In this document: positions 1,420 through 34,818 of the stretch, piece by piece
How positions within the stretch are numbered: position 1 is the stretch's first letter
Layout of the letters: every line of letters begins with the position of its first letter
NCBI GenBank assembly: GCA_019695345.1
Contig: JAIBAE010000027.1
Coordinates: 1 to 47,617 of the forward strand
Length of the DNA stretch: 47,617 nucleotides
Origin: Bacteroidota bacterium
GTDB lineage: Bacteria > Bacteroidota > Ignavibacteria > Kapaibacteriales > NICIL-2
Direction: 5' to 3'
The notes under the pieces: model-generated
Told to the model about the DNA's origin: nothing
Seen by the model: the letters and a program-made list of their open reading frames with translations, nothing else
Database searches by the model: none
Translations under genes and position numbers: made by a program

Positions 1420-3699
1420 ATGATACACAGGCTTATTTTATTAGTACTCGCTGTTACGGGTTTCAATTTGTGTACTGCTTCTGCACAACAAAATTCATGG
1501 ATTGCACAGAGCATGCACCCATTTACAACAGCTATGGTATTTTCTCCTAATAGAAGTGCAGTCTGTTTTTATCAGAATCTCCCGAATAATAAATGCGACG
1601 TAAACATACATGACACGTACAGCAGAGCCGTTTCAGCTTTATTTTTGGTGTCTGGAAATCCAACAATATGCAGAATCTCAAACAGTAGCAAGTATCTACT
1701 AACAGTTGATACAGCAAAACAGGTTACTATATATAATCAACTCACCGGCGAAAAGCTCAACTCATACATTGTAGATAATCTTACAAAGTCTTATATAACC
1801 GATATAAAGTTTAGAGATGATGATTCAACATTTACTATGGTACGAAAGTACTTAGACTACTATGTGTTTGTTGATACATGGAGTATACATAATTATCTTC
1901 CAATTTCATCTGACACTCTTACTGAATTCAACATTACTGAACGTTTACAACTCTCATCATCAGGTAAACTACTTTGCTATACAAAAGATAAAAACATATT
2001 CACCTATTTAGTACCCAATAAAAAATTACAAACTACAACCTCACAGTACACAGATAACTCCGGTAAAATCATAGGGTATTCCCATGATGATTCAATGTTT
2101 GTGTACTATGGGAAATCAGGTATTACCACCTATGCAATAAGAAGTACCGGAATAATTCCTGTTGCAAACAATTCTGAACTTTCCGGTAACTACGCAGAAT
2201 TCAATAACGAAAAATCATACATTGCTTTGGAAGGCGGTATTTACAAAGCTTCCTTGCAGGACAACCCCTTATTTACCCCGGAAGAAGGCGAATTTAATTC
2301 TCCTTTTACCACTACTTCAGACTTCTTTAAATTCTGTGATAACAATGATTTTTGGGTAGGTGCGAATAGAACTACTACATGCCAAATGGAGTTTTATGCC
2401 AAGTATAAAATTAATACTCTTGGTAAAGCATTTTTAGTTTATGATTTGAATAGCGAAACCCTCAAAGATCAATTCCCATGCGGACATGGAAATCTTAAGA
2501 ATATCATATCAACTGAATTTTCTTTAAATGATGCAACGTTAGTGACAACCGACCACACCAATCTATCCTGTTTTTGGCGTACATCAAATGGGGCTTTTAT
2601 CAGAGAATTTTTTGCTCCTAATGTAAAACCGTATTTATCAAGTACCGGGGCTGAGTTCTATATTGCCGACTCAAAACAAATAAAGGAGTACAGCGTTGAA
2701 TTTCCAACTATGAATTGGAGTTTGAATTACGACGAACTGCCTGAAATTCCAAAGGTATTCAATACTCCCAATAAAATGTACATTCTCGTTGTTTCAAGAA
2801 GTAAGGGTTATTGCATCAACTCAGAAAGCCGGAGTATTATCTCATCATTTTCCGAGACAATAAACAATCCTTCTGTTACTTCAAACAACACCTTATTATT
2901 TACTTCCGGTTCAGATATTAAAGAATTCAATCCAAGCACAAGGGTAGTGAAAACTATAATGTCCATTTCAAATGAAACACTAAAACCAGATTCTGTAAAT
3001 TTTTCATATTCTGGTAATGCGCTTGTAACCTATACAATAGCACGGAAGTTCACAAATCAATCGGGTCTCAATACATATCTTTCCAAGGTATATTCTATAC
3101 CCGATGCCAAGCTTTTATATGTTGATTCGTTGATAAACACAGCGTTAGTACCGTATCTCCACCCGGACGGTAAATACATACATTTTTCTCGTTCAACTAA
3201 AATTAACAGCGAAAACAATTTCAAAGGGCAGGCACTAACTGTAGAGACATCCACTAAGCATCCATTATGCGATACTAATTATTATGGAGGCATAACATCA
3301 CCAATTGTGTTTCAGGCAATTCCATCAAGGTCTGCTAAGGTTATAAGTTATACTTTTTCATGTGGTTCAACTATAATTGTTAGTCCTCCCCCATGCGATG
3401 CAGCACTGGATGTTTACGAAAGTCCAATCTCAACTACTAACGTTAATACTACCCCTAATCCTTATTCATCAACCGTAAAAATTACGTTTCAATTAGAACA
3501 ACCACATTCATTTTCGGGTGAGGTAAAACTTTACAACATTCAGGGTGAGGTTGTTTTCTTCAACAACATCAAGGTAACCGATGCCTCAGAACAACAGATT
3601 ATTCTGAATACACCTACCTTACCTCAAGGTTTATACTTTACAGAAATAACGATCGGCTCAACAATCATCCGAGGAAAACTAATGAAGAGTAATGAATAG
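1420..3699 (+). CDS. Secreted beta-propeller-like protein with T9SS sorting domain
   Basis: A 759-residue protein with a clear N-terminal signal peptide ending near residue 23 (TASAQ). The body holds irregular WD40/propeller-like blades recognisable by segments such as MVFSPNRSAV, CRISNSSKYLL and EFSLNDATLV, similar in style to the 22305-23639 protein. The last 80 or so residues form a T9SS type A sorting domain: PNP near the beginning, a beta-strand with LYNIQGEVV, then LPQGLYFTEI and a terminal basic KLMKSNE. The protein is therefore expected to cross the inner membrane by Sec and be exported or anchored at the cell surface by T9SS. No catalytic motif is recognised. It is monocistronic and convergent with the ABC-F gene. 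Confidence 0.8.
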   Translation: MIHRLILLVLAVTGFNLCTASAQQNSWIAQSMHPFTTAMVFSPNRSAVCFYQNLPNNKCDVNIHDTYSRAVSALFLVSGNPTICRISNSSKYLLTVDTAKQVTIYNQLTGEKLNSYIVDNLTKSYITDIKFRDDDSTFTMVRKYLDYYVFVDTWSIHNYLPISSDTLTEFNITERLQLSSSGKLLCYTKDKNIFTYLVPNKKLQTTTSQYTDNSGKIIGYSHDDSMFVYYGKSGITTYAIRSTGIIPVANNSELSGNYAEFNNEKSYIALEGGIYKASLQDNPLFTPEEGEFNSPFTTTSDFFKFCDNNDFWVGANRTTTCQMEFYAKYKINTLGKAFLVYDLNSETLKDQFPCGHGNLKNIISTEFSLNDATLVTTDHTNLSCFWRTSNGAFIREFFAPNVKPYLSSTGAEFYIADSKQIKEYSVEFPTMNWSLNYDELPEIPKVFNTPNKMYILVVSRSKGYCINSESRSIISSFSETINNPSVTSNNTLLFTSGSDIKEFNPSTRVVKTIMSISNETLKPDSVNFSYSGNALVTYTIARKFTNQSGLNTYLSKVYSIPDAKLLYVDSLINTALVPYLHPDGKYIHFSRSTKINSENNFKGQALTVETSTKHPLCDTNYYGGITSPIVFQAIPSRSAKVISYTFSCGSTIIVSPPPCDAALDVYESPISTTNVNTTPNPYSSTVKITFQLEQPHSFSGEVKLYNIQGEVVFFNNIKVTDASEQQIILNTPTLPQGLYFTEITIGSTIIRGKLMKSNE

Positions 3700-13154: not shown

Positions 13155-14693
13155 TTAATTATCGTTATAGCGTACTTCGCGTTGTTGGGAGTAACGCTTG
13201 TATCCGTTAATGGCACGCACAGTAATGGTGTTCTGTTGAGGTGGGATAACAAACACCTGCAAATGCACATTATACTGCTTATTATACTCGTGGTCGCCAA
13301 ACATTTCCTGAACTTTACCCTGTAGCCCAGTAGTTTCGAGTTTTACCCGAGACTGATTATCGGTTTGCAAACCATAGCCCCGTGTACGAATTCTGATGCT
13401 TCCATTTTCCATTTTTGATATATCAATAATTTCGGGTGTAGGAAAATTATTAACTGTAATTCCAACCGATTGCCCTATTTTCTTACCGTTCAACATTCTA
13501 TCCAGATAAAATGTTTTTCCGGTATCGGATACTGAAGGTGTGAATGAAAAAGGCTCGCCTTGTAACGATGTTGCCCTGCTATTATCTTTATCATCGCGAA
13601 GCACAGCAGTTGCCTGAGAGCTGTTGATAAATGGCAAACCCGGATTAATTGAATAACTAACACCGGGGTACATTTGCGTTGGTACATTAGGATTACTTAG
13701 TTGCTTTGCAATTACTCCAAACATCACCGAGACTTCCTTTTTATCGCTTGCACGCTGTGCTGTAACCTGATATGTTGTTAACCCAGTTGCAGGAGCAGTT
13801 CCGCGAACAACTATTTCATTACCCTCAATTTTTAAATATGCAGAACCACCTGTAACAGTGGGTGTACCAAGTAAATCGCGGGATGGGTCTGCACCATACA
13901 CGGTAATTCTGTTTTCCCATTCCTGATATGCAAGCGTTGTTAAGTTAGGTTCATACCGAGGTTGAAGTGTAAACTGCCCCGGAGGCGGAATTGCCTGCTG
14001 TCTACTTGCAGCAATTTGTTCTGCAAGCTCACGTATTTTTTGCTGTGTTAAGCTATCATTTAAGGAAAGTGCTTGTTGATTGAGAGTTACTAAGGTGTTA
14101 GGGTTTCCGCTACCGCCATCAACATACAGCATTGCTACTGTAAATTCTGTTTCGGAGGTTAAACGTATTGTTGTATCCGCACCCAACAATTGACGTATAT
14201 AATCTTGTTGGACATCGCTTAAAGTTTGCGGGAGAATTGGAGTAGCAGTGGCTGTAACATGAACTTTAAACAATCTGTTCATGCGTTCTTTAGTAGGTGG
14301 TGTCCATGTAAAGTGCATATTCCCTTGTTCAATATCACCTGTTAAATGAAACAGCTGTGTGTTTGTTTCTCCTGCCGACGTTAACCGAATATGTTGTTTG
14401 TACGAAATGTCTTCAATCTGAAAATCGTAATGAACATCTCGCATTGCACCGGAATAATAAATGGTATTCATTGAATCACACGTAACAACTGCTATTGAAT
14501 CACCTTTACTTACCACTCTGCATAACATGGTTGTACGTTCGGGGTGTACACTAAACGATGATTGCAACAACGACATGATAACACCCGTAGCACGATGCTC
14601 CTCACGACGCTTATCCGGAATTAACAAGATAAGCGAGGCAAGATAGAGAATAAAGTATATCTCTATAAATCGTTTGCGACGGTGTTTTTTCAT
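13155..14693 (-). CDS. gldM: GldM/PorM-like T9SS motor protein (divergent)
   Basis: A 512-residue protein, close in length to GldM (513) and PorM (516). A basic N-terminus is followed by one membrane helix (about residues 9-26), then a large periplasmic part built of beta-rich domains (about 45-150, 245-330, 335-425, 426-512), the GldM architecture. A helical stretch near 205-235 separates the first two. It overlaps the GldL-like gene by one base (TAATG), as expected for a coupled motor pair. GldM couples the proton-driven GldL motor to outer-membrane T9SS parts. Sequence similarity is low by eye, so the assignment rests on architecture, length and the gldL neighbour. GldK and GldN are not adjacent. 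Confidence 0.6.
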   Translation of the reverse strand: MKKHRRKRFIEIYFILYLASLILLIPDKRREEHRATGVIMSLLQSSFSVHPERTTMLCRVVSKGDSIAVVTCDSMNTIYYSGAMRDVHYDFQIEDISYKQHIRLTSAGETNTQLFHLTGDIEQGNMHFTWTPPTKERMNRLFKVHVTATATPILPQTLSDVQQDYIRQLLGADTTIRLTSETEFTVAMLYVDGGSGNPNTLVTLNQQALSLNDSLTQQKIRELAEQIAASRQQAIPPPGQFTLQPRYEPNLTTLAYQEWENRITVYGADPSRDLLGTPTVTGGSAYLKIEGNEIVVRGTAPATGLTTYQVTAQRASDKKEVSVMFGVIAKQLSNPNVPTQMYPGVSYSINPGLPFINSSQATAVLRDDKDNSRATSLQGEPFSFTPSVSDTGKTFYLDRMLNGKKIGQSVGITVNNFPTPEIIDISKMENGSIRIRTRGYGLQTDNQSRVKLETTGLQGKVQEMFGDHEYNKQYNVHLQVFVIPPQQNTITVRAINGYKRYSQQREVRYNDN

Positions 14694-15484
14694 TATTTGA
14701 GTTTAGCGCTTAACAGGTTTTCAACTTCTCTTCGCACAGCAACTTGAATCTCTTCGCGTTGTAAAGTGCGGGTAGCAATATTTAACTCGTGGATTGCTTC
14801 CTTAAACTGTTTAAGTGTTTCGTTGGTTTGTTTCATGGTGTTTATCAGCTCGGGGTTAGGGGCTACCGCATGGGCAGCTGTTTCGGTTGCTGTTCGTACC
14901 AGATTCGAGAGTTCAGAATTCTCGCGGGTAAGTTCTTTCAGAGATTCTACTGCATTCTCTACATTTATAGCAACAGCTGCGTAGTCTCTTCCAATCTCAC
15001 CTATTTCTCGCAGTAAATCATGTTGCTCATCATCATCTTTATTGGAATCGTTAAATGTATCCTCGTCCACTTCATCAGTCGGCGAAAAGTACATAACCAT
15101 AAACATTACAATTAACAAAAACGCTTCAAACGCAATCGAGCCAAGCACGGCGTTATCAGTAACTTTATCGCTGAACCTGCGGATACCAATTACCACTAAC
15201 AAAATAGCTGCACCAAAGTAAACAAACGAGTTTATGGTGGAATAGTAAAATCGGTTTACAACCTCTTGCATCCATAACGAAGTACCCGAAAAAAAACCAA
15301 GCGGATGCAATACCGTAACTTCATGGTGTGAATACCTATACACTTCTTTAACCGAAGTACATAATCTCCACATTGTGGATAACGTGGTAAATCCACTTAA
15401 CTGTTTATCAAAGCGAAGCTCGCGGAATACTTCCCGAACTAACGCTCTTCCCTCGCGGGTTGCTAACGATCTTATTTCTTTCAT
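14693..15484 (-). CDS. gldL: GldL-like T9SS motor protein with N-terminal extension
   Basis: A 263-residue protein from the ATG at 15484. A GTG at 15511, directly next to the upstream stop codon, would add 9 residues; I preferred ATG because neither has a Shine-Dalgarno sequence. Two membrane helices lie at about 85-102 and 110-133. The second carries a buried glutamate (IAFEAFLL, E120), followed by SPTDEVDED; F. johnsoniae GldL has the same pattern, a TM2 glutamate in LLTEALIF then FEPVDDE. The rest is a cytoplasmic coiled coil, also as in GldL. Unlike GldL, about 85 residues precede TM1. It lies between an LptF/G permease and a GldM-like gene, forming a tight operon. Confidence 0.65.
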   Translation of the reverse strand: MKEIRSLATREGRALVREVFRELRFDKQLSGFTTLSTMWRLCTSVKEVYRYSHHEVTVLHPLGFFSGTSLWMQEVVNRFYYSTINSFVYFGAAILLVVIGIRRFSDKVTDNAVLGSIAFEAFLLIVMFMVMYFSPTDEVDEDTFNDSNKDDDEQHDLLREIGEIGRDYAAVAINVENAVESLKELTRENSELSNLVRTATETAAHAVAPNPELINTMKQTNETLKQFKEAIHELNIATRTLQREEIQVAVRREVENLLSAKLK

Positions 15485-15511
15485 AACGTTGTTATTTACA
15501 GGTTTGTACAC

Positions 15512-16600
15512 CTATGTTTTGGTTCTAAGTAAATTCAGAACTCCAATAATAAAGAATATACCATTTGCCGCCCACCCAATCACCGCCGGATGTGTATTTA
15601 TTTCCATCCCGATAGATTGGCTTACTTTGGTAAACACTAAATACACAAACGATACCACCATAGCCGTTGCAATCTCTACGGCAATTCCGCTCTTCTTTTT
15701 AACCGAGGCAAACGGTACTCCAAACATCACCACAATAAAATTGGCAAATGGAAATGCGTACTGACCGTAGTAATCAATTACCTTTTGCCGTACATCTTTA
15801 CCACCGCGTTCTAATATTGTAATGTATTCACGGAGTTCATCAAAATTCATTTCTTCCGGTGCGCGCTGTAATTCTGTAATACTGTGGTGGTTAATACTTA
15901 ACTTCAATGAGTCTTTATAAATTCTTCTAACCCTAAACTTTCCATCTTCAAAAGTACGTTCAAATCCATTGGAAATCATCCACACATTTTGAACACTGTC
16001 CCATTGTAATGTTTTTGCATCCAATCTCTTTTTTACAACAGGGTGCATTTCACTTTCGTAATACTCAACAATAATATCGTTTCCTGTTTTAGAGATAGCA
16101 TCATAATACGATAGCACTACATTGGTTGTAGGTGTCTCGCGGTAATACAAATTATACACCTGCGTTTGGTTACTGCCCGACCCCTTACCCAGATACTGAC
16201 GCTCGATACTTAATTTTTTAGTTAACGCGCGGGGCACTATCCAGCCATTAAAGTATAACTGTCCCGCACAAACCATTCCGCTAAGCAAAAGTATCGGAAT
16301 CATCATTCTGTACAAACTCATCCCGCCCGATTTCATAGCAGTGATTTCGTTCAGGTTTGTTAGTCGTCCAATGGAAAACAAGGAAGCAATAAGCATTGCC
16401 ACAGGAGTCAACAGTTTTAAAATCTCCGGAAAGAAATAGAAATAATACTTCAGGATTATCAACACCTGAACATTCAGGTCTAAGAATTTATCCAAACTCT
16501 CAAGGATATTCACCACTAAAAAAATAGTACACAGCGCAAGCACTGCAAACACAAACGTAGAAGCAAACGAACGGAGTATATAACGGTCAAGTTTATTCAT
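15512..16600 (-). CDS. LptF/LptG family permease
   Basis: A 362-residue inner-membrane protein of the YjgP/YjgQ family, which forms the membrane part of the lipopolysaccharide exporter LptB2FG. The N-terminus MNKLDRYILRSF, three membrane helices (about 11-33, 58-78 and 97-118), the cytosolic coupling segment RLTNLNEITAMKSGGMS between helices 2 and 3, a periplasmic beta-jellyroll domain (about 120-265) and three C-terminal helices (about 275-355) are all present. F and G cannot be told apart securely; the single copy could serve as either. It is the first gene of the operon and abuts the gldL-like gene, an unusual coupling of LPS transport with the T9SS motor. Confidence 0.85.
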   Translation of the reverse strand: MNKLDRYILRSFASTFVFAVLALCTIFLVVNILESLDKFLDLNVQVLIILKYYFYFFPEILKLLTPVAMLIASLFSIGRLTNLNEITAMKSGGMSLYRMMIPILLLSGMVCAGQLYFNGWIVPRALTKKLSIERQYLGKGSGSNQTQVYNLYYRETPTTNVVLSYYDAISKTGNDIIVEYYESEMHPVVKKRLDAKTLQWDSVQNVWMISNGFERTFEDGKFRVRRIYKDSLKLSINHHSITELQRAPEEMNFDELREYITILERGGKDVRQKVIDYYGQYAFPFANFIVVMFGVPFASVKKKSGIAVEIATAMVVSFVYLVFTKVSQSIGMEINTHPAVIGWAANGIFFIIGVLNLLRTKT

Positions 16601-16823: not shown

Positions 16824-19800
16824 TTATCGTATAATCACAAACGGAACACTCACAGTATTTACAGAACCTTTTACCCGTACATAGTATGTACCGGATACGA
16901 ATGTACTTGTATTGATGTGAAGATTACTTCCTGATCTTATCAACCCTTTTTCCATCGTCCTGCCAAGCGCATCTGTTACTGCATAAGAATAATCAAAGTT
17001 ACTCGTTTCTATATCTTCTAACAAACCAGTGAACTTTATATCTATTTCATTATCTGCCGGGTTTGGTTTTACCGTTAGTACGTTTTCATGTTGTAGTTCT
17101 TTTCCTAAATCTACAGTTATGACTTCTGTACTTTCTGATTCTTTCCCTAATTGGTCATCAGGTGTTATCCCATCAATTTGTATTTCTTCTGTATATCTTA
17201 CGTTCTCACCACATCCATTAATAATAATAACTCGATACTCATCATTACCACCACGTATCAAACGAACCCCGTTTCGATATTTTTCATCTGAGTTACGTGA
17301 TGTATAAGGCAGTGCCACTCTGTTTCTTCTGTTACTTTTGCTTTGTAACTCCATTCTGAAACATGGATTCATTATACCTTTTACATATGTTCGTAACAGT
17401 GAAGAATTACCAACTTTGAACCATGATGTTTTTAGGGTATCGTACTGATTTTGTTTTCCATCTTTCTCATTATCACCACGTGCTACAATATTTAACTCTT
17501 TTCCATCTATATCCGGTTGAGCGTACAATAACCTACGTCCGCTTGGCAGAATATATCCAGACCAATACAATGGTTTGTAATCTTCCATTGAAGCAGCTTT
17601 ATAGAACATTTCCGCAGATGAAACCAAAGTATCAGATTCATATTTTGGTTGATACAATCGGCGAGTTTGATTCCATTGGTTCATAGATTGCACTGCATGC
17701 TGTGCAGACAATCGTGGAGATTTACCTTCAAATACAAAGTGTAAGTTATTCGGATATAAACTATAATTCTCAAGGACAGGGTTTATTGGTAAGAATGACC
17801 AATATCCATAATTCAATTGCCACAATCTTGGATGCCAGTCAAACCCATTTGCATACCTTGATTGAAAGTTCATTACACAAGAACTATCTGATACATTTGT
17901 AAAATTATCAACTGCATCTAACCTTGAGTTTCCACCTTGTGATATTTGAACTTGTGATAAATTGGACGTTAACGACGTGACTGTCCTGTATTGCCAGCAC
18001 GACCATGACGGAGGTATGTTATTATATGCAAACGCATAGTCAATACCACGTGTAGATAAAAATGTTCTTCCATTCTCAGGTATTGTTTGCCACACAACCC
18101 TATCCCAATGTGCTGTTATATATGAACGTAAAGGAACTGCGCCATTTCCGAACTCCTCCAATCCACGGTATACCATCGGGTACATGTGTCTGCCAGTCCA
18201 GTTGTTTACCGTATCCATTGTAAGAATTGCAATTACGGTGTCGCCATTTGCGGCAGTATCTACCGGACATTGGTAAGCAGTACTTGGTGTTAAGCCGTCC
18301 GGCATTTTATAACTGATAGTAAACGGATTTGTTGAGGTGTTGAGATGTACCACAGAATAATTGATATAATTATTCGGAGCAATTGGAGTTAATCGTTCCT
18401 CCCATACCAAAGCCGCTTCCGTTTCATGTAAATTGATTCTGGAATATGTATTAAGATTTGGATGTTGACAAACAGTATTTGGCGAAGTGCTTAACCGAAT
18501 TGAGATTGCAGGTGTACCATTAGTAAAGTTCCTCGCTTGTGGGAGTTTCCACCGTGTTACGATTCCGCGAACACTATCAGCCCATGAATAATAATTGCCA
18601 AGCCACGAAGCATTTATGGTTGGTGCGCCCCATGTGGAAAGGAATGTACTATCATTCAGCCAAGTACCGTTCTCGAATCTACCTGCCTGTGTTGAATCAA
18701 TTTCTTGCTCTACTCCGGCTGATTGTGTCCCTTCAGCATCCAAAACATTTTCTACAATTCTGATTTTCATTGTATCCGGTTTATCTGCACAGGCATACAC
18801 AACATATACACTTACCTTAGGTGCGTTTGGTGCGCTTGTATCCGCCCTTACAACAAGAGAAGGATAACCACAATACATCAATTGTCTTCCACCATCTAAT
18901 TTTGTAATACTATCTTGGGTAATCTTAATTTCTGATTCCCATTGAATACCTCCCAAAATAGTTGCTTCTTTGGGATAGGGAATTGAGCGTTTGTAAAACA
19001 CATTCATTCTATTTGTTGCAGTATCCACACGATGATAAACAGCATGATAACGTAATTGATTGGAGTATACAAGACGATGCGTTAAAGGGTTTACTGTTGT
19101 TACAGGGTAACTACACATTTTCCTTTGATTGGGATTTTCTACATCACCGGATGAAAAGGTACTCTTAACCCGTTGTATGGTAACCCTGAACAGCTTTCCT
19201 TCTCCAGGGGTGTAATTCATAACTAACTTTGCGTTTGTCTTTATCACCGTGTCCAAAGTACCGCCAACTTCCTGAATGTGAAACACTCTCGGAATAGTAT
19301 CCGGTGGGATGTAGTTAAAAGGAATCGTTATCTCTCTGCATCCTTGACGTTTCCAATATTTATCGCGCCACCATGCTGCTGTTTGACTATTGTTGTCACG
19401 CCAGTATGTTCCACCGTTTTGCAATAGTGCATCCCAATCGGCAGTTGGGACAAATACCATTTCTCCGTTTGCATAGTTTGCATCGCGCCACAAAGCATCG
19501 GTTCTCCTGTTCTGAACTCCAAGATAAAACACACTATCGGTTGACAATGTATTCCGTTTTAAGAGTGTTACATCATAAAAACAAGAATCTTTGCCAGCGG
19601 TTGCGTTTTCATACAAAGGGAGGTTTTGACTATTTACTCTGTTTAGTGGTCGGGTGGTAATACCTGCTACATAGATAAACTTCTTTAGTACACTATCGTT
19701 AGTATTTAACGACGGATGCTGTGTGTATAACTTTATGAATCCCTTTCCATACCATGCTTGTAACGTGAGACTTAACAACTCGCTACCATTATCCTTAACC

Positions 19801-22292
19801 CATGAATTATTACGCTCACATTCAACCCGTAAACTCTTCATACCCAAATAGAAATGGTCCATATCAGTATGCATATCATTTAACCAGTAATACGAAGCAT
19901 TCATATAGTTATGCCAACGTATGGTGTCAGCATCATTTCTATTTACCCAATCACCACCTATATCATCACTTCGTAACAATGCATTACCTTGTAAATTATG
20001 TATTGGGTTTGCCATCCAAAATCCTAAGGTAAAACCGTGGTTGTCAAAATTAGTATTAGGATATGTTGAGGTATATACATTATTGCCGGGTGTAGTTCCC
20101 ATATAATAATACACAACACCTTTAGCACCAAGTAACAAGGGGAATCGAGTCATTAGCTTTATTTCCTCTCCTGTTTTTGGGCGTTCTCCTCCATCTTGAT
20201 AAGCCATTGGTCCTTGCGAAGCAGTATCATCTAATCGCCAATACTCGGTAGATAACCAGATATTGGCAAGCCAAGGTTTTCCCGAATACATAAATCCACG
20301 AGGAATATAATATGAATAGTACAAATCCTTCTCAATTTTTGCTTGAGTCCCTACATGAAATATTAACGTATCTTTTGACGAACCATCCCATGAAAACCGT
20401 TCTGGATAAGGATTAAATGGGAGCGGTATTGTGGTGAGTGATTGTCTTGTGTTTCTACTCGGAAATTTAGTATCATATCGTGTTTCGTAATTTGAATGTA
20501 AACTATCAAGGTTGTCTGTATCATAATACTTATTCTTATTACCATCTAACTCAACATTGCCTAAATATCCTCGTTTCTGTCCGAATGCACGATGAGTCGC
20601 ATCACTCCCATATCTATAAAATGGTACGGCAACATCATTTTGAAACTGTAGGTTTGCTCCAGACCAATAGTAGGAATATCCTTTTGCATGGAGCGCGTGT
20701 GCTGTATATGTCTCAAATTTAGGGGATGATTCCTCGTTGGTTAAGCCACCTGTGAGTAAGTTCTGATAACGATTAGGCCACCACCACAACGCATTACGTT
20801 CTTCCATACCGTAAATAGCCAAAACCTTTAAGTCGCGGGTTGGAAGTGCCGTATTGATGCTATCAAGCATGTGTTCCATACTCATTATCATATTACGATA
20901 GTATATATCAAAATGCCCACGATACAATTTTTGTGATAACGGTGTTTCAAATCGTAACCAATCAAGAGCAATATTCAAATGACCATGATACGTAACCTGT
21001 ATATCTAAACTATCTATGTATGGATCGGTACGTTTTTTTATTTCGTTACGACTTTCCATTTCAGGACGAAATATCTTATTATTAGGTACTATATCATTAC
21101 AAATAAATTCCGCAGAAAGAGTAATACTGCTATCACCAACCGTTGAAGTACCAAGTGCAAGCATTTCACCAGTAATATTCCACGTAACTGCCCCGTTGGC
21201 ATTTACAGTTAAGTTACGGGCAAGTCCGCGATAGTCGTTTCTTGCTCCACGTATGTGAACGGTATCACCACCGGAAAATCTGCTAAACTTGATAGTGTTT
21301 GTGGAATAACTAACACTCCATGTTGTATCGTAGTGAGTACCGGCAGAGTCTGTCCAGACTTTGATGGTATCAATAGTGCCATGTGGGTTTAATAATACAA
21401 TAGGTAACTGAACGGAAAGTATTACACTATCCCGTAGATTTGTTGGGACAGATTCACGGGAACGGAGATTAAGACTCAAATACCAGACACGACCATTGAT
21501 ACTATCTCTTGACCTTTGAAGTTGTTGGAGTGTGACATCATTTTGTGGGTCAAGCATTGCCAAACCTACCGCATCAATAAAATTTACCATTGTATCTTTT
21601 GAGCCCCCTTTGGAACAGTAAAAACCGTAGGAAAGAAATCTAAGTATATCGGGACGCCACAGTTTAGAGAGAACTAATTGAGGGGTAGTAACACTGTCTT
21701 TATCCAATAGTACCCTTGGGTAATCGGGCTGGGTAGTATCACTTAGTATTCGTGTTTTACTTTTTGTTTTAAAACCAAATACACCACCTTCTTTATCGGC
21801 AGGACGGGGGGTAAATGCCTGTGATTCTTGTACGGTTATGGTTGGTTCGATTTGTTGGGCTATACAATTTAACATGGGATGATAGTACTTTCGGATGGTG
21901 TCGTATAAAAACACACTATTTATAGCCTTGTAATCCAGATACATAAAGAATCTTGTACTATCAGGATATTTAAGATTATTATACATGCTATCGGCGGGGC
22001 GATTACCATACCAATTGGTTGCATAATAGAACTTTGTATGCGCCGTATTGGTGTGCATTGCGTTATCAAAGTTACTTACCTCTCCTCCCCAATTCCAACC
22101 TATAATAGGATGCGTTAGGTGATAGGTGCGGTCATAGACATTTGTATTATTGAGGTTAGGCAGTCCGTTTTCATTTGTTAACGTTCCAAGAGGTGGGGGC
22201 GTTTGGATTTGTGCATGTAGCGTATTACCCAAAGTTAGCAATACACCAATAGCTATCGTGACTGTTACAACAGTCTTTCGTAATGTTTTCAT
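16824..22292 (-). CDS. Giant secreted protein with T9SS sorting domain
   Basis: An 1822-residue protein with an N-terminal signal peptide (hydrophobic core residues 10-22, ending TLHAQ) and a C-terminal T9SS type A domain (KPNPADNEIDIKF, DALGRTMEKG, SGTYYVRV, ending FVIIR). The 1700 residues between are rich in Trp, Tyr, Asn and Asp. A stretch around residues 480-760, with WWWPNRYQ, GMEERNALWW and a TRFPLLLGAKGVVYYYMG segment, looks like part of a barrel-type glycoside hydrolase, but I cannot name a family or catalytic residues. Later parts read like beta-sandwich or propeller segments. It is the second gene of an operon, 12 bp after a T9SS propeller protein. Substrate and role are unknown. 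Confidence 0.8.
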   Translation of the reverse strand: MKTLRKTVVTVTIAIGVLLTLGNTLHAQIQTPPPLGTLTNENGLPNLNNTNVYDRTYHLTHPIIGWNWGGEVSNFDNAMHTNTAHTKFYYATNWYGNRPADSMYNNLKYPDSTRFFMYLDYKAINSVFLYDTIRKYYHPMLNCIAQQIEPTITVQESQAFTPRPADKEGGVFGFKTKSKTRILSDTTQPDYPRVLLDKDSVTTPQLVLSKLWRPDILRFLSYGFYCSKGGSKDTMVNFIDAVGLAMLDPQNDVTLQQLQRSRDSINGRVWYLSLNLRSRESVPTNLRDSVILSVQLPIVLLNPHGTIDTIKVWTDSAGTHYDTTWSVSYSTNTIKFSRFSGGDTVHIRGARNDYRGLARNLTVNANGAVTWNITGEMLALGTSTVGDSSITLSAEFICNDIVPNNKIFRPEMESRNEIKKRTDPYIDSLDIQVTYHGHLNIALDWLRFETPLSQKLYRGHFDIYYRNMIMSMEHMLDSINTALPTRDLKVLAIYGMEERNALWWWPNRYQNLLTGGLTNEESSPKFETYTAHALHAKGYSYYWSGANLQFQNDVAVPFYRYGSDATHRAFGQKRGYLGNVELDGNKNKYYDTDNLDSLHSNYETRYDTKFPSRNTRQSLTTIPLPFNPYPERFSWDGSSKDTLIFHVGTQAKIEKDLYYSYYIPRGFMYSGKPWLANIWLSTEYWRLDDTASQGPMAYQDGGERPKTGEEIKLMTRFPLLLGAKGVVYYYMGTTPGNNVYTSTYPNTNFDNHGFTLGFWMANPIHNLQGNALLRSDDIGGDWVNRNDADTIRWHNYMNASYYWLNDMHTDMDHFYLGMKSLRVECERNNSWVKDNGSELLSLTLQAWYGKGFIKLYTQHPSLNTNDSVLKKFIYVAGITTRPLNRVNSQNLPLYENATAGKDSCFYDVTLLKRNTLSTDSVFYLGVQNRRTDALWRDANYANGEMVFVPTADWDALLQNGGTYWRDNNSQTAAWWRDKYWKRQGCREITIPFNYIPPDTIPRVFHIQEVGGTLDTVIKTNAKLVMNYTPGEGKLFRVTIQRVKSTFSSGDVENPNQRKMCSYPVTTVNPLTHRLVYSNQLRYHAVYHRVDTATNRMNVFYKRSIPYPKEATILGGIQWESEIKITQDSITKLDGGRQLMYCGYPSLVVRADTSAPNAPKVSVYVVYACADKPDTMKIRIVENVLDAEGTQSAGVEQEIDSTQAGRFENGTWLNDSTFLSTWGAPTINASWLGNYYSWADSVRGIVTRWKLPQARNFTNGTPAISIRLSTSPNTVCQHPNLNTYSRINLHETEAALVWEERLTPIAPNNYINYSVVHLNTSTNPFTISYKMPDGLTPSTAYQCPVDTAANGDTVIAILTMDTVNNWTGRHMYPMVYRGLEEFGNGAVPLRSYITAHWDRVVWQTIPENGRTFLSTRGIDYAFAYNNIPPSWSCWQYRTVTSLTSNLSQVQISQGGNSRLDAVDNFTNVSDSSCVMNFQSRYANGFDWHPRLWQLNYGYWSFLPINPVLENYSLYPNNLHFVFEGKSPRLSAQHAVQSMNQWNQTRRLYQPKYESDTLVSSAEMFYKAASMEDYKPLYWSGYILPSGRRLLYAQPDIDGKELNIVARGDNEKDGKQNQYDTLKTSWFKVGNSSLLRTYVKGIMNPCFRMELQSKSNRRNRVALPYTSRNSDEKYRNGVRLIRGGNDEYRVIIINGCGENVRYTEEIQIDGITPDDQLGKESESTEVITVDLGKELQHENVLTVKPNPADNEIDIKFTGLLEDIETSNFDYSYAVTDALGRTMEKGLIRSGSNLHINTSTFVSGTYYVRVKGSVNTVSVPFVIIR

Positions 22293-28252: not shown

Positions 28253-28321
28253 GTTGCGATGCTGTAACGATTTTTCCCGACGGGGTTGCGGCGCTGGCGC
28301 GGTTGCTACGGCAGTGGACGG
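28253..28321 (+). repeat. Dispersed GC-rich element, family B copy 2
   Basis: Reads TTGCGATGCTGTAACG, CCCGACGGGGTTGCGGCGC and GTTGCTACGGCAGTGG. The open frame of the next gene runs back into this element, which argues for the later start at 28508. Confidence 0.65.
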
Positions 28322-28444
28322 AATCCACCAAACCTCTCATTTTCTCCAATTCTCGCAGATTATTACCCAGAACTACGTAGAAAACGGGTGCACATTAACA
28401 AAAAATACGTAGGGCTACTGATATACCCCTGCACGTTATACAGA

Positions 28445-28452
28445 TACCTTTG
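28445..28452 (+). promoter_or_regulatory. TAnnTTTG promoter box for the 28508 gene
   Basis: TACCTTTG, 55 bp before the chosen start codon and downstream of the family B element. Confidence 0.35.
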
Positions 28453-28507
28453 TTCAGTAACTGTTTTTGAAAGGCGTACGGATATCGCCTTAACGTTTGG
28501 AGGAACA

Positions 28508-31500
28508 ATGAAAACTTTTTTTGCAATACTTGCTACACTTTTAATAACACTTTCCGCACACGCTCAGGTTTTGAACGGTGTGGTAAACGTATATACATCG
28601 GTTTCTGAATACGGCGCGCAATGCGGATGCATTATTGTTGCATCGGCTCGCGGTTTTCAGGTTGGCGACCGAGTTATGATTATTCAAATGCAAGGTGCAA
28701 CCGTTAGCACAGCAGCAAATGCAGCATTTGGTGCAGTTACCTCCTACAACAACACAGGGAAGTTTGAATTCTCCAACATTGCTTCTATCTATGGTAACAC
28801 CGTTACCTTAATGAATCAGTTAAACAACAGTTATGATTTTACAAATGGTTCGGTTCAACTTATTAAAGTTGCTACCGGAACGGACATTATTATTGCAGGC
28901 ACAGTTCAACCAAAAGCTTGGGATGGCACAACCGGCGGTGTAGTAGTAATAGAAGCAAGCAATTCGCTGTTAATTAACGCACCAATTGATGCAACCGGTA
29001 AAGGTTTCCGTGGTGGTGTTTCAACAATGGCTAACTTAAACTGTAACCAACATGGTTATTCCTACGATGCAACATCTATGAATGGTGCACATAAAGGCGA
29101 AGGCGTTGCTAAGTTCCAAATGGCAATGGCACGCGGTCGTGGTGGTTGGGCAAACGGTGGCGGTGGCGGTAACAACCATAACTCCGGTGGCGGCGGTGGT
29201 GGAAATGCTTTTATGGGTGGCTTTGGCGGTTATTCATGGAGTGGTTGCTCGATTAAAAATGATGCTGAAGCACGTGGCATGGGTGGTTTTGGTTTGAATT
29301 ATTCTGCAAATGACTTCCGCGTATTTATGGGTGGCGGTGCAGGTGCAGGACACAGAAATGACGTAAACAATACAGCCGGCGGAAACGGTGGCGGAATAAT
29401 CATTATTGTTGCCCCAACAATCTCGGTAGCAAATGGTTCGATAGTTTCGCGCGGCGGTGATGCAGCTAAAACAGATTTAGATGGTGCAGGTGGCGGTGGC
29501 GCAGGCGGAACAGTAGTTTTATTTACCGATAATGTTGCAAACTCCTTAGTAGTTGATGTAACAGGTGGTAAAGGTGGCGATTGCCATACACCACATGGTC
29601 CTGGCGGTGGCGGCAGTGCAGGTGTTGTATTAATGAAACAAGACCAAATGCCTGCTACAATACAAGTTGTAAAACAAGGTGGCGCAAGCGGTAAAAATTA
29701 TGAATCAGCTCCCGCATTTATTTCAAACCAATATGGTTCAACAAATGGCGATGATGGTTTTGTTGTAAGTTCAGTTCGCATGCCTTTGGTTGGCGCACCA
29801 ACAAATACCGTACGTGTTAATGTAATGAATGACGTAACAGTATGTGCAAACACACCAGTTCAAATAACAACAGAAGTTGAAGGCGGAGTTGCACCTTATG
29901 CTTATACATGGTCGGGTTCTGATATTAACGATACAACAACATCTATCCCAACAGCTCGCCCAAAGAAAAACACAAAATATATCTGTATGGTTCGCGATTC
30001 ACGCGGTTGTGTTGCAGTTGATTCTGTAACAGTAACCGTTGCCGACCCATTAACAGTAGTAGTAGATAAAAACAAAAGTGTTTGCAAAGGTAACAGCATT
30101 TCTTTAGACGCATTTATTAACGGTGGCAGCAATACTGGTTATACATACAAATGGGAACCAACCACAGGTTTGACAGATGCAACTGTAGCTACGCCTTTAG
30201 CAACACCAACAGCAACTACAACCTATACATTAACAGTTACCGATTTTTACGGTTGCAGTAAATCAGATTCTGTTACGGTAAAGGTTAATACATCTGAAAC
30301 ACCTGTTCTTTCCGGCGCTGTAACGGTTTGTACAAACAGCACGGTTGAATACCGCTGTGCAACAAATAGCTCAACTAAACTTTTATGGTCGGTAAGTGGT
30401 GCAAAAGATATGGTACTTGCTAAAGATGGTAAATCAGCAACTATTACCTGGGGTAAAGTTGGAACCGGAAAAATTAGCGTTAGTGGTGATGTAAGCACAG
30501 GAACATGTGTTGGATTATCATCAATGACAGTTTCAATTCAACAAGCACCTGAAGTTTCAATAACGGCAACAAAAAAGAACATTTGCGAAGGTGAAACAAC
30601 AACATTAACAACTACTTCAGCGTTCGATTCATACCGTTGGAACAATGGCTCAACAGAACGCACTATTACCGTTGATGCAATCGGCACTTACACAGTAGAA
30701 GTATCAAACAATGGCGGTTGCACGGCAACATCAAATTCTATTAGCATTGAAGTTGCACAATTACCACACGTAGAAATAACAACAATTGGTAATGCAAAAC
30801 CATGTAGCAACGAAACAGTTACGTTAGATGCAGGTGTTCATACTTCGTACAAATGGAACACCGGTGCAACAACACGCACTATTACACCTTCTGCAAGTGG
30901 AGAATATTCCGTTACAGTTACAAACACTAATGGTTGTTCAGCAACATCAGAACCTGTTACAATCACTGTTGGTGGAGTTGTTACACCTTCAATCTCCGGT
31001 AAAGTTGATGTATGCCGTGATGCAGTTGCAGTATACACAGCAAAAGGTTTAACAGGCAGTACATTTGAATGGAATGTTACCGGTGCAACATCATTTACAC
31101 CAAAGGCAAATACAGTTACAGTGGTTTGGTCAGACAATGCTCAAGGTAAAATTTCAGTTAAAGAACAAACACAATTTGGATGCAACGGCACCTCCGAAAC
31201 TTCAGTTACTATACATCGCGCTGCACAACCAACTGTTGCTGTTCAGAAATCTGAAATTTACGACGACGAAACAACAACACTTGATGCTGGTGATGGCTTT
31301 GCAACATACTTATGGAACAATGGCGCAACAACCCGCACCATAACCGTAAATGCCGAAGGTAACTACAGTGTTGCTGTAACAACAACACAAGGTTGTTCCG
31401 CAAACTCTGGTATTGCATCAATTAAAAAAATACATCGCGCACAACCACGCATAACAACCGATAAAACTGCATTCTGTACCGGACTTTCTACAACGTTAGA

Positions 31501-32515
31501 TGCAGGTACACAATACAATAATATTCGTTGGAACAATGGTGCAACAACACGCACAATCACTGTATCGCAAAAAGGAAATTATTACTTTACTGCAACTCTT
31601 GATAACGGTACCGAGTTAACATCAGACACAATTAAAGTTATTGTTTGGGATAATCCACAGCCATACATCATCAAAGCAAAAGATGCGTTAGTTTCTTCGG
31701 TTGGTGGTACGTATCAGTGGTATCGCAACGGCGAGGCAGTTCAAGGTGCTACAGACAGAATGTACACTCCAACAGAATCAGGCAAATACAATGTAATGGT
31801 AACGTATGTTGGTGGTTGCAAAAACATCTCAGAACAAGAAAACTGGTTAATCGTTCCAAATGTAACAGTTACAGTTCCTTCAACATCAGCAACGGTTGGT
31901 ACAAAAACAGTAATTAAGCTCGAAGCAACTTCAGCTGATGAGCAAGTATCTACACCACACACATTCACAGCAACCATTAGCTTCGATAAAACTATGCTTA
32001 TGCCAACAGGCGCAACAAAGCAAGGTACAATAGTTGGCAACAAACGTTACATCACCGTTACAGGAACAAGTGGCTTTAACGGAACACTTGATGCAATGGA
32101 GTTTGTAGTACTTGCTGGCGCAACCGATAAAACCGATATCACAATCGAGTCGGTAACATTTGGCGATACAGCAACCATAACCAAAGTAAACGGTGAGTTT
32201 ATAGCAACACCTGTTTGTCCATTACTTGGTAACCAAGGAATCTCAACCGGAACAACATTACAATTGTTCCAGAACTATCCAAACCCAGTAACAGAAAACA
32301 CAACAATAGAGTACACCCTCAACGAAACAGGCACAACCGAATTAAGTGTAGTAGATATGTCAGGCAAAACAGTTGCAGTAATCGTATCCGAACACCAAAC
32401 ACGCGGAAGCCACAGCGTAACATTTAATGCAAGCGAACTTGCAAATGGTAAATACGTAATAGTATTAACAACCGTAAGCAAACAAATCAGCAAGAATATG
32501 ATTGTTAGCAAATAA
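28508..32515 (+). CDS. Large adhesin-like protein: Gly-rich, Ig-like, cohesin-like and T9SS domains
   Basis: A 1335-residue protein from the ATG at 28508, which follows GGAGG and starts a clean signal peptide (MKTFFAILATLLITL, cleaved after SAHAQ). Residues about 21-165 are a beta-rich N-terminal domain (GDRVMIIQMQGA). A glycine-rich region with long GGGG runs spans about 195-400. Ig/SprB-like repeats follow, among them four units with the shared core WNxGxTxRTITV (near residues 715, 785, 935 and 1010) spaced by roughly 70-150 residues. About 1115-1235 resembles a cohesin-type beta-sandwich (ATISFDKTMLMPTG, TLDAMEFVVLAG). The end is a T9SS domain (NYPNPVTENTTIEY, ELANGKYVIVL, MIVSK). It is probably a surface adhesin or matrix component. 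Confidence 0.85.
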   Translation: MKTFFAILATLLITLSAHAQVLNGVVNVYTSVSEYGAQCGCIIVASARGFQVGDRVMIIQMQGATVSTAANAAFGAVTSYNNTGKFEFSNIASIYGNTVTLMNQLNNSYDFTNGSVQLIKVATGTDIIIAGTVQPKAWDGTTGGVVVIEASNSLLINAPIDATGKGFRGGVSTMANLNCNQHGYSYDATSMNGAHKGEGVAKFQMAMARGRGGWANGGGGGNNHNSGGGGGGNAFMGGFGGYSWSGCSIKNDAEARGMGGFGLNYSANDFRVFMGGGAGAGHRNDVNNTAGGNGGGIIIIVAPTISVANGSIVSRGGDAAKTDLDGAGGGGAGGTVVLFTDNVANSLVVDVTGGKGGDCHTPHGPGGGGSAGVVLMKQDQMPATIQVVKQGGASGKNYESAPAFISNQYGSTNGDDGFVVSSVRMPLVGAPTNTVRVNVMNDVTVCANTPVQITTEVEGGVAPYAYTWSGSDINDTTTSIPTARPKKNTKYICMVRDSRGCVAVDSVTVTVADPLTVVVDKNKSVCKGNSISLDAFINGGSNTGYTYKWEPTTGLTDATVATPLATPTATTTYTLTVTDFYGCSKSDSVTVKVNTSETPVLSGAVTVCTNSTVEYRCATNSSTKLLWSVSGAKDMVLAKDGKSATITWGKVGTGKISVSGDVSTGTCVGLSSMTVSIQQAPEVSITATKKNICEGETTTLTTTSAFDSYRWNNGSTERTITVDAIGTYTVEVSNNGGCTATSNSISIEVAQLPHVEITTIGNAKPCSNETVTLDAGVHTSYKWNTGATTRTITPSASGEYSVTVTNTNGCSATSEPVTITVGGVVTPSISGKVDVCRDAVAVYTAKGLTGSTFEWNVTGATSFTPKANTVTVVWSDNAQGKISVKEQTQFGCNGTSETSVTIHRAAQPTVAVQKSEIYDDETTTLDAGDGFATYLWNNGATTRTITVNAEGNYSVAVTTTQGCSANSGIASIKKIHRAQPRITTDKTAFCTGLSTTLDAGTQYNNIRWNNGATTRTITVSQKGNYYFTATLDNGTELTSDTIKVIVWDNPQPYIIKAKDALVSSVGGTYQWYRNGEAVQGATDRMYTPTESGKYNVMVTYVGGCKNISEQENWLIVPNVTVTVPSTSATVGTKTVIKLEATSADEQVSTPHTFTATISFDKTMLMPTGATKQGTIVGNKRYITVTGTSGFNGTLDAMEFVVLAGATDKTDITIESVTFGDTATITKVNGEFIATPVCPLLGNQGISTGTTLQLFQNYPNPVTENTTIEYTLNETGTTELSVVDMSGKTVAVIVSEHQTRGSHSVTFNASELANGKYVIVLTTVSKQISKNMIVSK

Positions 32516-32642: not shown

Positions 32643-34775
32643 TCAGCGCGAAATAACTATTGTTCGTGATTGTGTTGTTACGCCCGATTGAAGTGTAATA
32701 GTATATACTCCGTTTGGAACTTCAGTACAGGAAACAACTAACTCTTCTTCGTTACTTGGAAGTTGAATTGTTTTGATAACTCTTCCTAAATAATCCACCA
32801 TTTTCACCATTCTGTGTGAGTTGATAGGTGTTATACGTAATTGATAACTATCTGAAACGGGATTTGGAGTTATAGACCAATCGTGTTCTTCCTGTTTAAC
32901 AGGAACAACAGAACTAACAATAGGTAAATCAGCTCGGAGGATTCCTTTGTTTGTAGAGGCAAAGATACTACCCTTGTAAAACGCAATAGATCCAATATCA
33001 GTAATACTATCACTCGTACCTACATCCACCCAGGATTCTCCATAGTTTGTACTTAACATCATTGTACTAATTGAAGTGTAACCGTTATAGTTTACTGCAA
33101 CTACAAAATTCTCATAAGCAGTGATTCTTGTAAAGAATCTCATTGTACTCTGCATAATAAGTGGTATCATTCTCCAATTACTGCCGTTATCTAGCGAGAT
33201 ATAATACTGACCCGATTCTGTTACGCCGTAAATAGTTTTACCAGTTACACTAGCAACAATTATTGTTGAGTCTTTATACTTATACGGATTAACACTCCAT
33301 GTTTTCCCGGTATCATTCGAAATGGCAAATGTTGTTCCTATGGAAAAGAGCGTTTCATTGTTTGCAAACAATATGCTTGTATATCCTAATCTATTGAGAC
33401 TATCCACTAACTCAAAATTTAAACATGACTCTGGCTTACTTCTCCTAATTCTTTGATTGATTAGAGCAATAACCTTCCCTTTGTGTTCAAAAATATTCCA
33501 ACATTGCCCACCCCTAACGGATTCAACGGTATGGATAGTATTTCCTTTATCCACAGAATAAGCAACATTCACACTTGTTGCATTAGACTCATTTTCAACG
33601 CCGAACAACAACGTGTCTTTATAGTTATAGTGATAAATTACACCGGATAGTTTGGTAAATGATTCCCAAGAATTAGAACTATAGGTAAAGTGTTTTAATG
33701 AATTCACCTTGTTTGATGAAAACACTCCTTCAACAGTGGTAAATAAGAGTTCAGTTGAAGCGAATATTGAGGGGTAGTTAGAGCGTTTCCATGAATATCC
33801 CATGTCGTCAGAAGTAAAAATTCCATTTACTGTTAATGCAACAAGGTTTTTCTTGTTTACAACTGCCAATTCAACTATAAAAGATGAAAAATTAGTATCA
33901 ATTTTTCTCCACGTTGTTCCGTTGTCTATTGTTATGTAACAATTCGAGTTGAAAATTCGGGTGTTCCCATTCTCTTTTAGTATTTTACCAACAGTGGTAA
34001 AAACCGACACACTGTTACCAACTATCAATTTATTGACGTAATTCTCTACACCGGAAACCTCCAATTTCCAATTACGCCCCCCATCACTCGATACAACAAC
34101 ACCTTTGTTATTTTTTGCCATAAATGTAGATTTACTCTGTTTAATATCTCCAAAGACCCCTAAAGTATCAACTCCCAACATAGCTGGCAGTATCGTGAGA
34201 CCATCATCAGTACTAATAGAAACTTTATTGTTTTTAGATACAAAAAGTGTTGTGGTGTCGTATTGAAAAATATTACTACCAAAAACAGCGTGATGTAGTT
34301 TACTTGAGTACATCCATGTTTGTCCAGAGTCCCTAGAAATGTAGTTATATACAGTATCCTTATACATCAGATATGAATGAAGTATGTTATCACGAAGGTA
34401 AATATACTGAGCATTAAACCATAGGAAGTTAAATACACTCCAGGTTACTCCTCCATCTGAACTTCTCTCCAAATACCTATAAGTAACATAATAATTATTT
34501 GGATAAACAAAATGCCATCTATACTTGTAAGTACCTAGGGTAACCATAGTCTCATACAAATGTAGAGTGTCATCTGGATATTCAATCCAATCATTCCCAT
34601 CATTGATTGAATAATATATCTTTATACCTGTCTGGTATAGAAATAATGTATCACTCTTTACGATAAAATTCCCACCATAATAACCACCACCAACTGTTTT
34701 CTGCCATTGAAGTTTTTGTGCACATGCACAAGAAAGGACGGTTATAAATGCAAGTAGTATGGTAAGACTTTTCAT
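32643..34775 (-). CDS. Secreted Asp-box (BNR) propeller protein with T9SS domain, paralog 1
   Basis: A 710-residue protein from the ATG at 34775, where the signal peptide (MKSLTILLAFITVL) begins; a frame-open ATG nine codons upstream would spoil it. The mature part carries about eight Asp boxes of the S-x-D-x-G-x-x-W type, such as SSDGGVTW, SRDSGQTW, SSDGGRNW, TIDNGTTW, TSDDMGYSW, ISNDTGKTW and SLDNGSNW, marking a sialidase/Vps10-like beta-propeller. No sialidase arginine triad or FRIP motif is evident, so it is more likely a binding or structural propeller. The end is a T9SS domain (WSITPNPVSDSYQL, VPNGVYTITL, TIVISR). It is a tandem paralog of the 35065-37227 gene, sharing order, length and leader. 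Confidence 0.83.
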   Translation of the reverse strand: MKSLTILLAFITVLSCACAQKLQWQKTVGGGYYGGNFIVKSDTLFLYQTGIKIYYSINDGNDWIEYPDDTLHLYETMVTLGTYKYRWHFVYPNNYYVTYRYLERSSDGGVTWSVFNFLWFNAQYIYLRDNILHSYLMYKDTVYNYISRDSGQTWMYSSKLHHAVFGSNIFQYDTTTLFVSKNNKVSISTDDGLTILPAMLGVDTLGVFGDIKQSKSTFMAKNNKGVVVSSDGGRNWKLEVSGVENYVNKLIVGNSVSVFTTVGKILKENGNTRIFNSNCYITIDNGTTWRKIDTNFSSFIVELAVVNKKNLVALTVNGIFTSDDMGYSWKRSNYPSIFASTELLFTTVEGVFSSNKVNSLKHFTYSSNSWESFTKLSGVIYHYNYKDTLLFGVENESNATSVNVAYSVDKGNTIHTVESVRGGQCWNIFEHKGKVIALINQRIRRSKPESCLNFELVDSLNRLGYTSILFANNETLFSIGTTFAISNDTGKTWSVNPYKYKDSTIIVASVTGKTIYGVTESGQYYISLDNGSNWRMIPLIMQSTMRFFTRITAYENFVVAVNYNGYTSISTMMLSTNYGESWVDVGTSDSITDIGSIAFYKGSIFASTNKGILRADLPIVSSVVPVKQEEHDWSITPNPVSDSYQLRITPINSHRMVKMVDYLGRVIKTIQLPSNEEELVVSCTEVPNGVYTITLQSGVTTQSRTIVISR

Positions 34776-34818
34776 CTTATTTTCCAGTTGTTTTTCTACC
34801 AATTTACAAGTGTTACAT

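Follow-up and report, generated by a model that had tools for sequence, protein, structure and literature searches.

The window analysed here, 47,617 nucleotides in length, is contig C17 of a Kapaibacteriales MAG of 4.56 Mb in 163 contigs. Its minus strand carries a gene for an LptG-like LPS-export permease followed directly by two genes that we call GldL1 and GldM1 (Table 1). All three open reading frames lie at the coordinates given by an earlier, sequence-only reading of this DNA, and the one-base overlap of the pair noted there is real (...CAAATAATGAAA...), an arrangement that likely couples their translation. The ATG at 15484 that we take as the start of GldL1 is common to its relatives; a GTG at 15511 would yield a protein of 272 residues. 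The permease matched PF03739 with E=3.5e-71 and scored 195 bits with TIGR04408 (LptG) versus 121 bits for LptF, both scores lying below the equivalog cut-offs. As had been claimed, neither gldK nor gldN is present at the locus and no equivalent lies nearby. Scanned for promoters and terminators, the locus returned sites no more numerous than shuffled sequence did. The neighbouring 1822-residue protein is a putative T9SS cargo, outside the motor. Proteins with a T9SS C-terminal sorting domain (CTD) are encoded within the window at 1420-3699, 16824-22292, 28286-32515 and 32643-34802, and a bacterial deoxyhypusine synthase-family protein (PF01916) at 188-1168.

Table 1. Features of the GldL1/GldM1 locus and of the second, divergent set in the same genome
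Feature	Position	Strand	Basis or remark
GldM1, GldM-like single-TM periplasmic subunit, 512 aa	13155..14693	-	ORF, orthologues, AF2, homology to GldM2
GldM1 domains D2-D4, three predicted beta domains, residues 242-507	13173..13970	-	AF2 secondary structure
GldM1 domain D1, residues 48-190	14124..14552	-	beta in AF2 model
GldM1 TM helix, residues 9-24	14622..14669	-	conserved motif R-x-x-E-I-Y-F-x-L-Y-L then P/S-D; AF2
TAATG stop/start overlap GldL1/GldM1	14691..14695	-	sequence
GldL1, GldL-like two-TM subunit, 263 aa	14693..15484	-	ORF, order-wide orthologues, hhalign, AF2
GldL1 TM helix 2, residues 110-132, invariant E120 (codon 15125-15127)	15089..15157	-	E120 aligned to GldL E49
GldL1 TM helix 1, residues 81-104	15173..15244	-	GAA motif, basic residue 11-12 positions on; AF2, alignment
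LptG-like LPS-export permease, 362 aa, directly upstream of GldL1	15512..16600	-	PF03739, TIGR04408
Neighbouring 1822-aa protein with T9SS C-terminal sorting domain	16824..22292	-	TIGR04183 24.6 bits, cut-off 23
GldL2, 444 aa	own contig C94 (L024:9112-16551, with PorU-like peptidase)		GldL1 search
GldL3, 322 aa	own contig C163 (L025:4986-8069, with following gene)		GldL1 search
GldM2, 734 aa, operon head	own contig C26 (L225:9630-16726)		with three secreted proteins X, Y and Z

The AlphaFold model of GldL1 (pLDDT 84) contains helices at residues 81-104, 110-132, 152-207 and 211-262, the first two forming a membrane hairpin that is preceded by some 80 additional N-terminal residues. A P-T-D-E segment and a long cytoplasmic coiled coil follow the second hydrophobic helix, so that every element named in the sequence-only reading (two helices, a glutamate in the second, an acidic segment, a coiled coil and an additional N-terminal domain) is present. 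The glutamate, E120, is invariant in 28/28 GldL1 orthologues, and its counterpart is kept in the GldL2 and GldL3 paralogues described below. We compared these sequences with alignments of canonical GldL and GldM drawn from 18 Bacteroidota genomes, nearly all of which have the gldKLMN order and in whose GldL the spacing from G-A-A to K27 is 11. Profile-profile alignment with hhalign of GldL1 (28 sequences) against canonical GldL (18 sequences) gave prob 91 and P=1e-6, placing E120 on E49. The hairpins alone scored 30.0 (P=1.2e-5); the best of 60 block-shuffled decoys reached 15.6 and the best LptG window 12.3. Foldseek with the GldL1 model returned two GldLM chains that fit over the hairpin with low rmsd, 7sax_D (TMt 0.67, rmsd 1.8 A over 46 columns) and 7sau_C, both with non-significant E-values. 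These profile comparisons establish GldL1 as a true if distant homologue of GldL. In F. johnsoniae GldL, E49 is strictly conserved and essential for secretion, and E59 is needed for gliding only (PMC8986121). GldL1 has no equivalent of E59: V130 stands 10 positions on from E120, and S134 precedes the proline. With valine at +10, the gliding-specific acid is absent.

Curated models did not detect this relationship. TIGR03513, the curated GldL model, had no match above its cut-off to GldL1, to its own genome or to the order; MotA_ExbB-type Pfam models had no match to GldL1 at E up to 1, and scans of GldL1 and GldM1 with Pfam and NCBIfam yielded nothing informative. Matches of the pair to PRK04778/EzrA, DUF948 and UPF0242 were set aside as coiled-coil noise. 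The hmmsearch match of GldL1 to the GldL chain 7sax_C in the PDB (E=6.5e-4) was likewise rejected, as it covers the coiled coil only and designed coiled coils score higher.

The case of GldM1 is different. Its AF2 model (pLDDT 82) comprises the TM helix at residues 9-24, a second helix (28-46) and four domains that are all beta, whereas in GldM D1 consists of five helices, and D2 and D3 are exclusively beta (PMC5790014). Profile-profile comparison with canonical GldM revealed no detectable similarity (prob 5.6), the curated GldM model TIGR03517 matched neither GldM1 nor anything else in its own genome, and Foldseek returned generic Ig-domain proteins. Homology was found with GldM2 of the second set (P=1.7e-8, hhalign). 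Because there is no significant sequence relation to GldM and the modelled first domain is beta rather than helical, we do not claim membership of the GldM family; as far as profiles and models can tell, GldM1 resembles GldM in position, length and domain count only. The GldL and GldM identities proposed in the sequence-only reading therefore stand in part: remote homology carries the first (P=1e-6) and the hairpin fold agrees with it, while for the second the layout is GldM-like, the sequence gives no GldM match and the fold of the first domain departs from that of GldM.

We next consider how the pair is distributed. Each of the 8/8 family genomes has one clear GldL1 orthologue (39-71% identity), the pair occurs in 13/13 sampled genomes of the order, and it extends at lower similarity to three more families of the class (f10, f34 and f43). 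A GldM-like gene adjoins the GldL-like gene in 33/39 loci from named genomes. LptG lies upstream of the pair in 8/8 genomes of the own family; among the 39 named loci, a few of which are cut short upstream, it does so in only nine, seven from the own family plus L068 and L077. Elsewhere the upstream neighbours vary and include T9SS cargo-like proteins; the pair lies beside a C25 peptidase with a CTD at L075 and L083, and beside a DUF7948/SBBP protein with a CTD at L094. Since the LptG linkage does not reach beyond the own family except at two loci, a joint control of motor and LPS export, which the sequence-only reading had put forward, can be at most a local arrangement, and we set it aside as a general explanation. 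The same distribution bears on the proposal that the pair is no motor at all and that GldL1, with its two TM helices, scaffolds or regulates the Lpt bridge together with a periplasmic Ig-domain partner, the likeness to GldLM being convergent. The LptG neighbour in the own family and the lack of detectable GldM homology in GldM1 would fit such a scaffold; it is nevertheless very improbable, given that the linkage is not general, that the similarity to GldL stands well above both shuffled and LptG decoys and that the intramembrane glutamate is absolutely conserved.

The host genome has the translocon of the T9SS. SprA is present at 867 bits (G000:C100) and in 79/80 genomes of the class, and PorV in 8/8 family genomes (302 bits in the own genome). 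Canonical GldL and GldM were not found above cut-off in the class genomes sampled, and GldK gave generic FGE-fold matches only (88.5 bits in the own genome against a cut-off of 350); the GldL, GldM and GldK models did give matches in Bacteroidia of the same sample, which served as positive control. GldN was found in 0/80 class genomes, an absence on weaker footing than those of GldL, GldM and GldK because its model had no positive-control genome in that search. No canonical gldKLMN set was found elsewhere in the own genome by the curated GldK, GldL, GldM and GldN models. These data agree with an independent 2024 survey, which reports SprA, PorV and Plug as the only T9SS proteins of Ignavibacterium and Melioribacter (PMC11705866).

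Searches with GldL1 revealed two paralogues, GldL2 and GldL3, in most family genomes, and the GldL1 hairpin is homologous to this group (P=9.5e-15). Against canonical GldL, the GldL2/3 alignment gave P=0.0056, so that of the paralogues GldL1 comes nearest to the canonical protein. GldL2 has as its immediate neighbour, in 12/12 order genomes examined, a C25 peptidase (1740-1940 aa; 1942 aa in the own genome) that carries a T9SS CTD and matches the PorU and PorU2 models best, below their cut-offs. The GldM2 family, found through relatives, is present in 7/7 order genomes searched and has the TM motif YFVLYLAVILELLIIIVERD. Of the proteins encoded with GldM2, Z is a VWA-OmpA protein, and counterparts of X and Y occur in operons of Ignavibacteria (L194, L195; P=2e-15 for X); hhalign of X, Y and Z against canonical GldK and GldN gave nothing significant. 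GldL3 is followed by a 695-aa ATPase-like protein, and in G107 and G034 a similar pair comes after a gene that reads like DnaK.

The two sets meet in genomes of families f34 and f43, where the four genes form the array GldL1-GldM1-GldL2-GldM2 (L182, L186, L189, L190, L191). GldM2 was found in 18/18 searched genomes that have GldL1/GldM1, which makes the latter look like an addition to the second motor. The distribution of GldL1/GldM1 is also the narrower: it is missing from many SprA-positive genomes, among them those of families f6, f7 and f38, which have a GldL of the second set. The linkage of GldL2 to PorU, together with a GldM2 operon common to Ignavibacteria, makes the second set the better T9SS candidate. 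SprA-positive families f5, f8, f9, f35-f37 and f39-f41 showed no GldL-like hairpin with any profile, so that the motor question is only partly answered for the class.

We conclude that GldL1/GldM1 is a divergent motor pair of the GldLM type and that the cell has two such motors. The pair may plausibly drive the T9SS, to which the second set is the more strongly linked. A view that follows the sequence-only reading, with GldL1/GldM1 as the main T9SS motor of Kapaibacteriales and some other role for GldL2/GldM2, draws on the rank of GldL1 as closest paralogue to canonical GldL (P=1e-6 versus P=0.0056 for GldL2/3), on the adjacent L-M gene pair as in gldKLMN and on the GldM-like length of GldM1, 512 residues. 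We regard it as unlikely, since the PorU linkage and the class-wide spread belong to the second set and families f6, f7 and f38 have SprA without this pair. The converse, that GldL2/GldM2 is the T9SS motor and GldL1/GldM1 energises another outer-membrane process, such as LPS or lipid transport or adhesin movement, would account for the narrower distribution of the pair, for the GldL2-PorU and GldM2-X-Y-Z linkages that tie the second set to the T9SS, and for the LptG gene directly upstream in 8/8 own-family genomes. However, that gene is absent from this position outside the family save at two loci, and elsewhere the pair often adjoins T9SS CTD proteins (L075, L083, L094), which leaves a purely non-T9SS role rather unlikely. 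A broader and more tentative possibility, which we hold open as a minority view, is that Kapaibacteriales possess two apparently unannotated GldLM-type proton motors, of which the class-level set of GldL2 beside PorU and GldM2-X-Y-Z would power the T9SS without a recognisable GldK/GldN ring, and GldL1/GldM1 would serve another envelope task.

On balance we favour a mechanism in which GldL1/GldM1 is probably a GldLM-like inner-membrane proton motor. GldL1 hairpins would form a ring about the two TM helices of a GldM1 dimer, one from each subunit, with E120 as the residue through which protons may cycle, and the beta domains of GldM1 would act as a stiff shaft that transmits the movement across the periplasm to a partner in the outer membrane. 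The likeliest such partner would be the T9SS or its surface cargo, with this motor working as a second one alongside GldL2/GldM2 and with LptG as an incidental neighbour in the own family. The 2024 survey (PMC11705866) left open what energises secretion in Ignavibacterium and Melioribacter. In our sample 79/80 genomes of the class have SprA, and no canonical motor gene was found. Two divergent GldL-like sets, one of them beside a PorU-like sortase, are concrete candidates for the missing T9SS motor. They broaden the range of sequences known for such motors and offer a natural test of which parts are essential, as the TM2 glutamate is kept and E59, the helical D1 and the KN ring are not.

Comparison with known systems places the pair as follows. 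The upstream gene is LptG-like (TIGR04408), and its relation to GldL1/GldM1 is one of genomic position, in the own family and at two other loci. With GldM/PorM, GldM1 shares a length of about 510 residues, one N-terminal TM helix and four predicted periplasmic domains of which D2-D4 are beta; it differs in having no significant sequence match, a D1 predicted to be beta rather than helical and another TM motif. GldL1 differs from GldL/PorL in escaping detection by the curated model, in lying outside any gldKLMN cluster, in its N-terminal region of about 80 extra residues and in lacking an acid at the position equivalent to E59. It shares with GldL/PorL the two-TM hairpin, the GAA motif with a basic residue 11-12 positions on, the invariant TM2 glutamate, the cytoplasmic coiled coil and a gene directly upstream of a gldM-like gene. 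Although the pair, unlike the T9SS core operon gldKLMN, has no linked gldK or gldN, it resides, like that operon, in a genome that also encodes the translocon proteins SprA and PorV.
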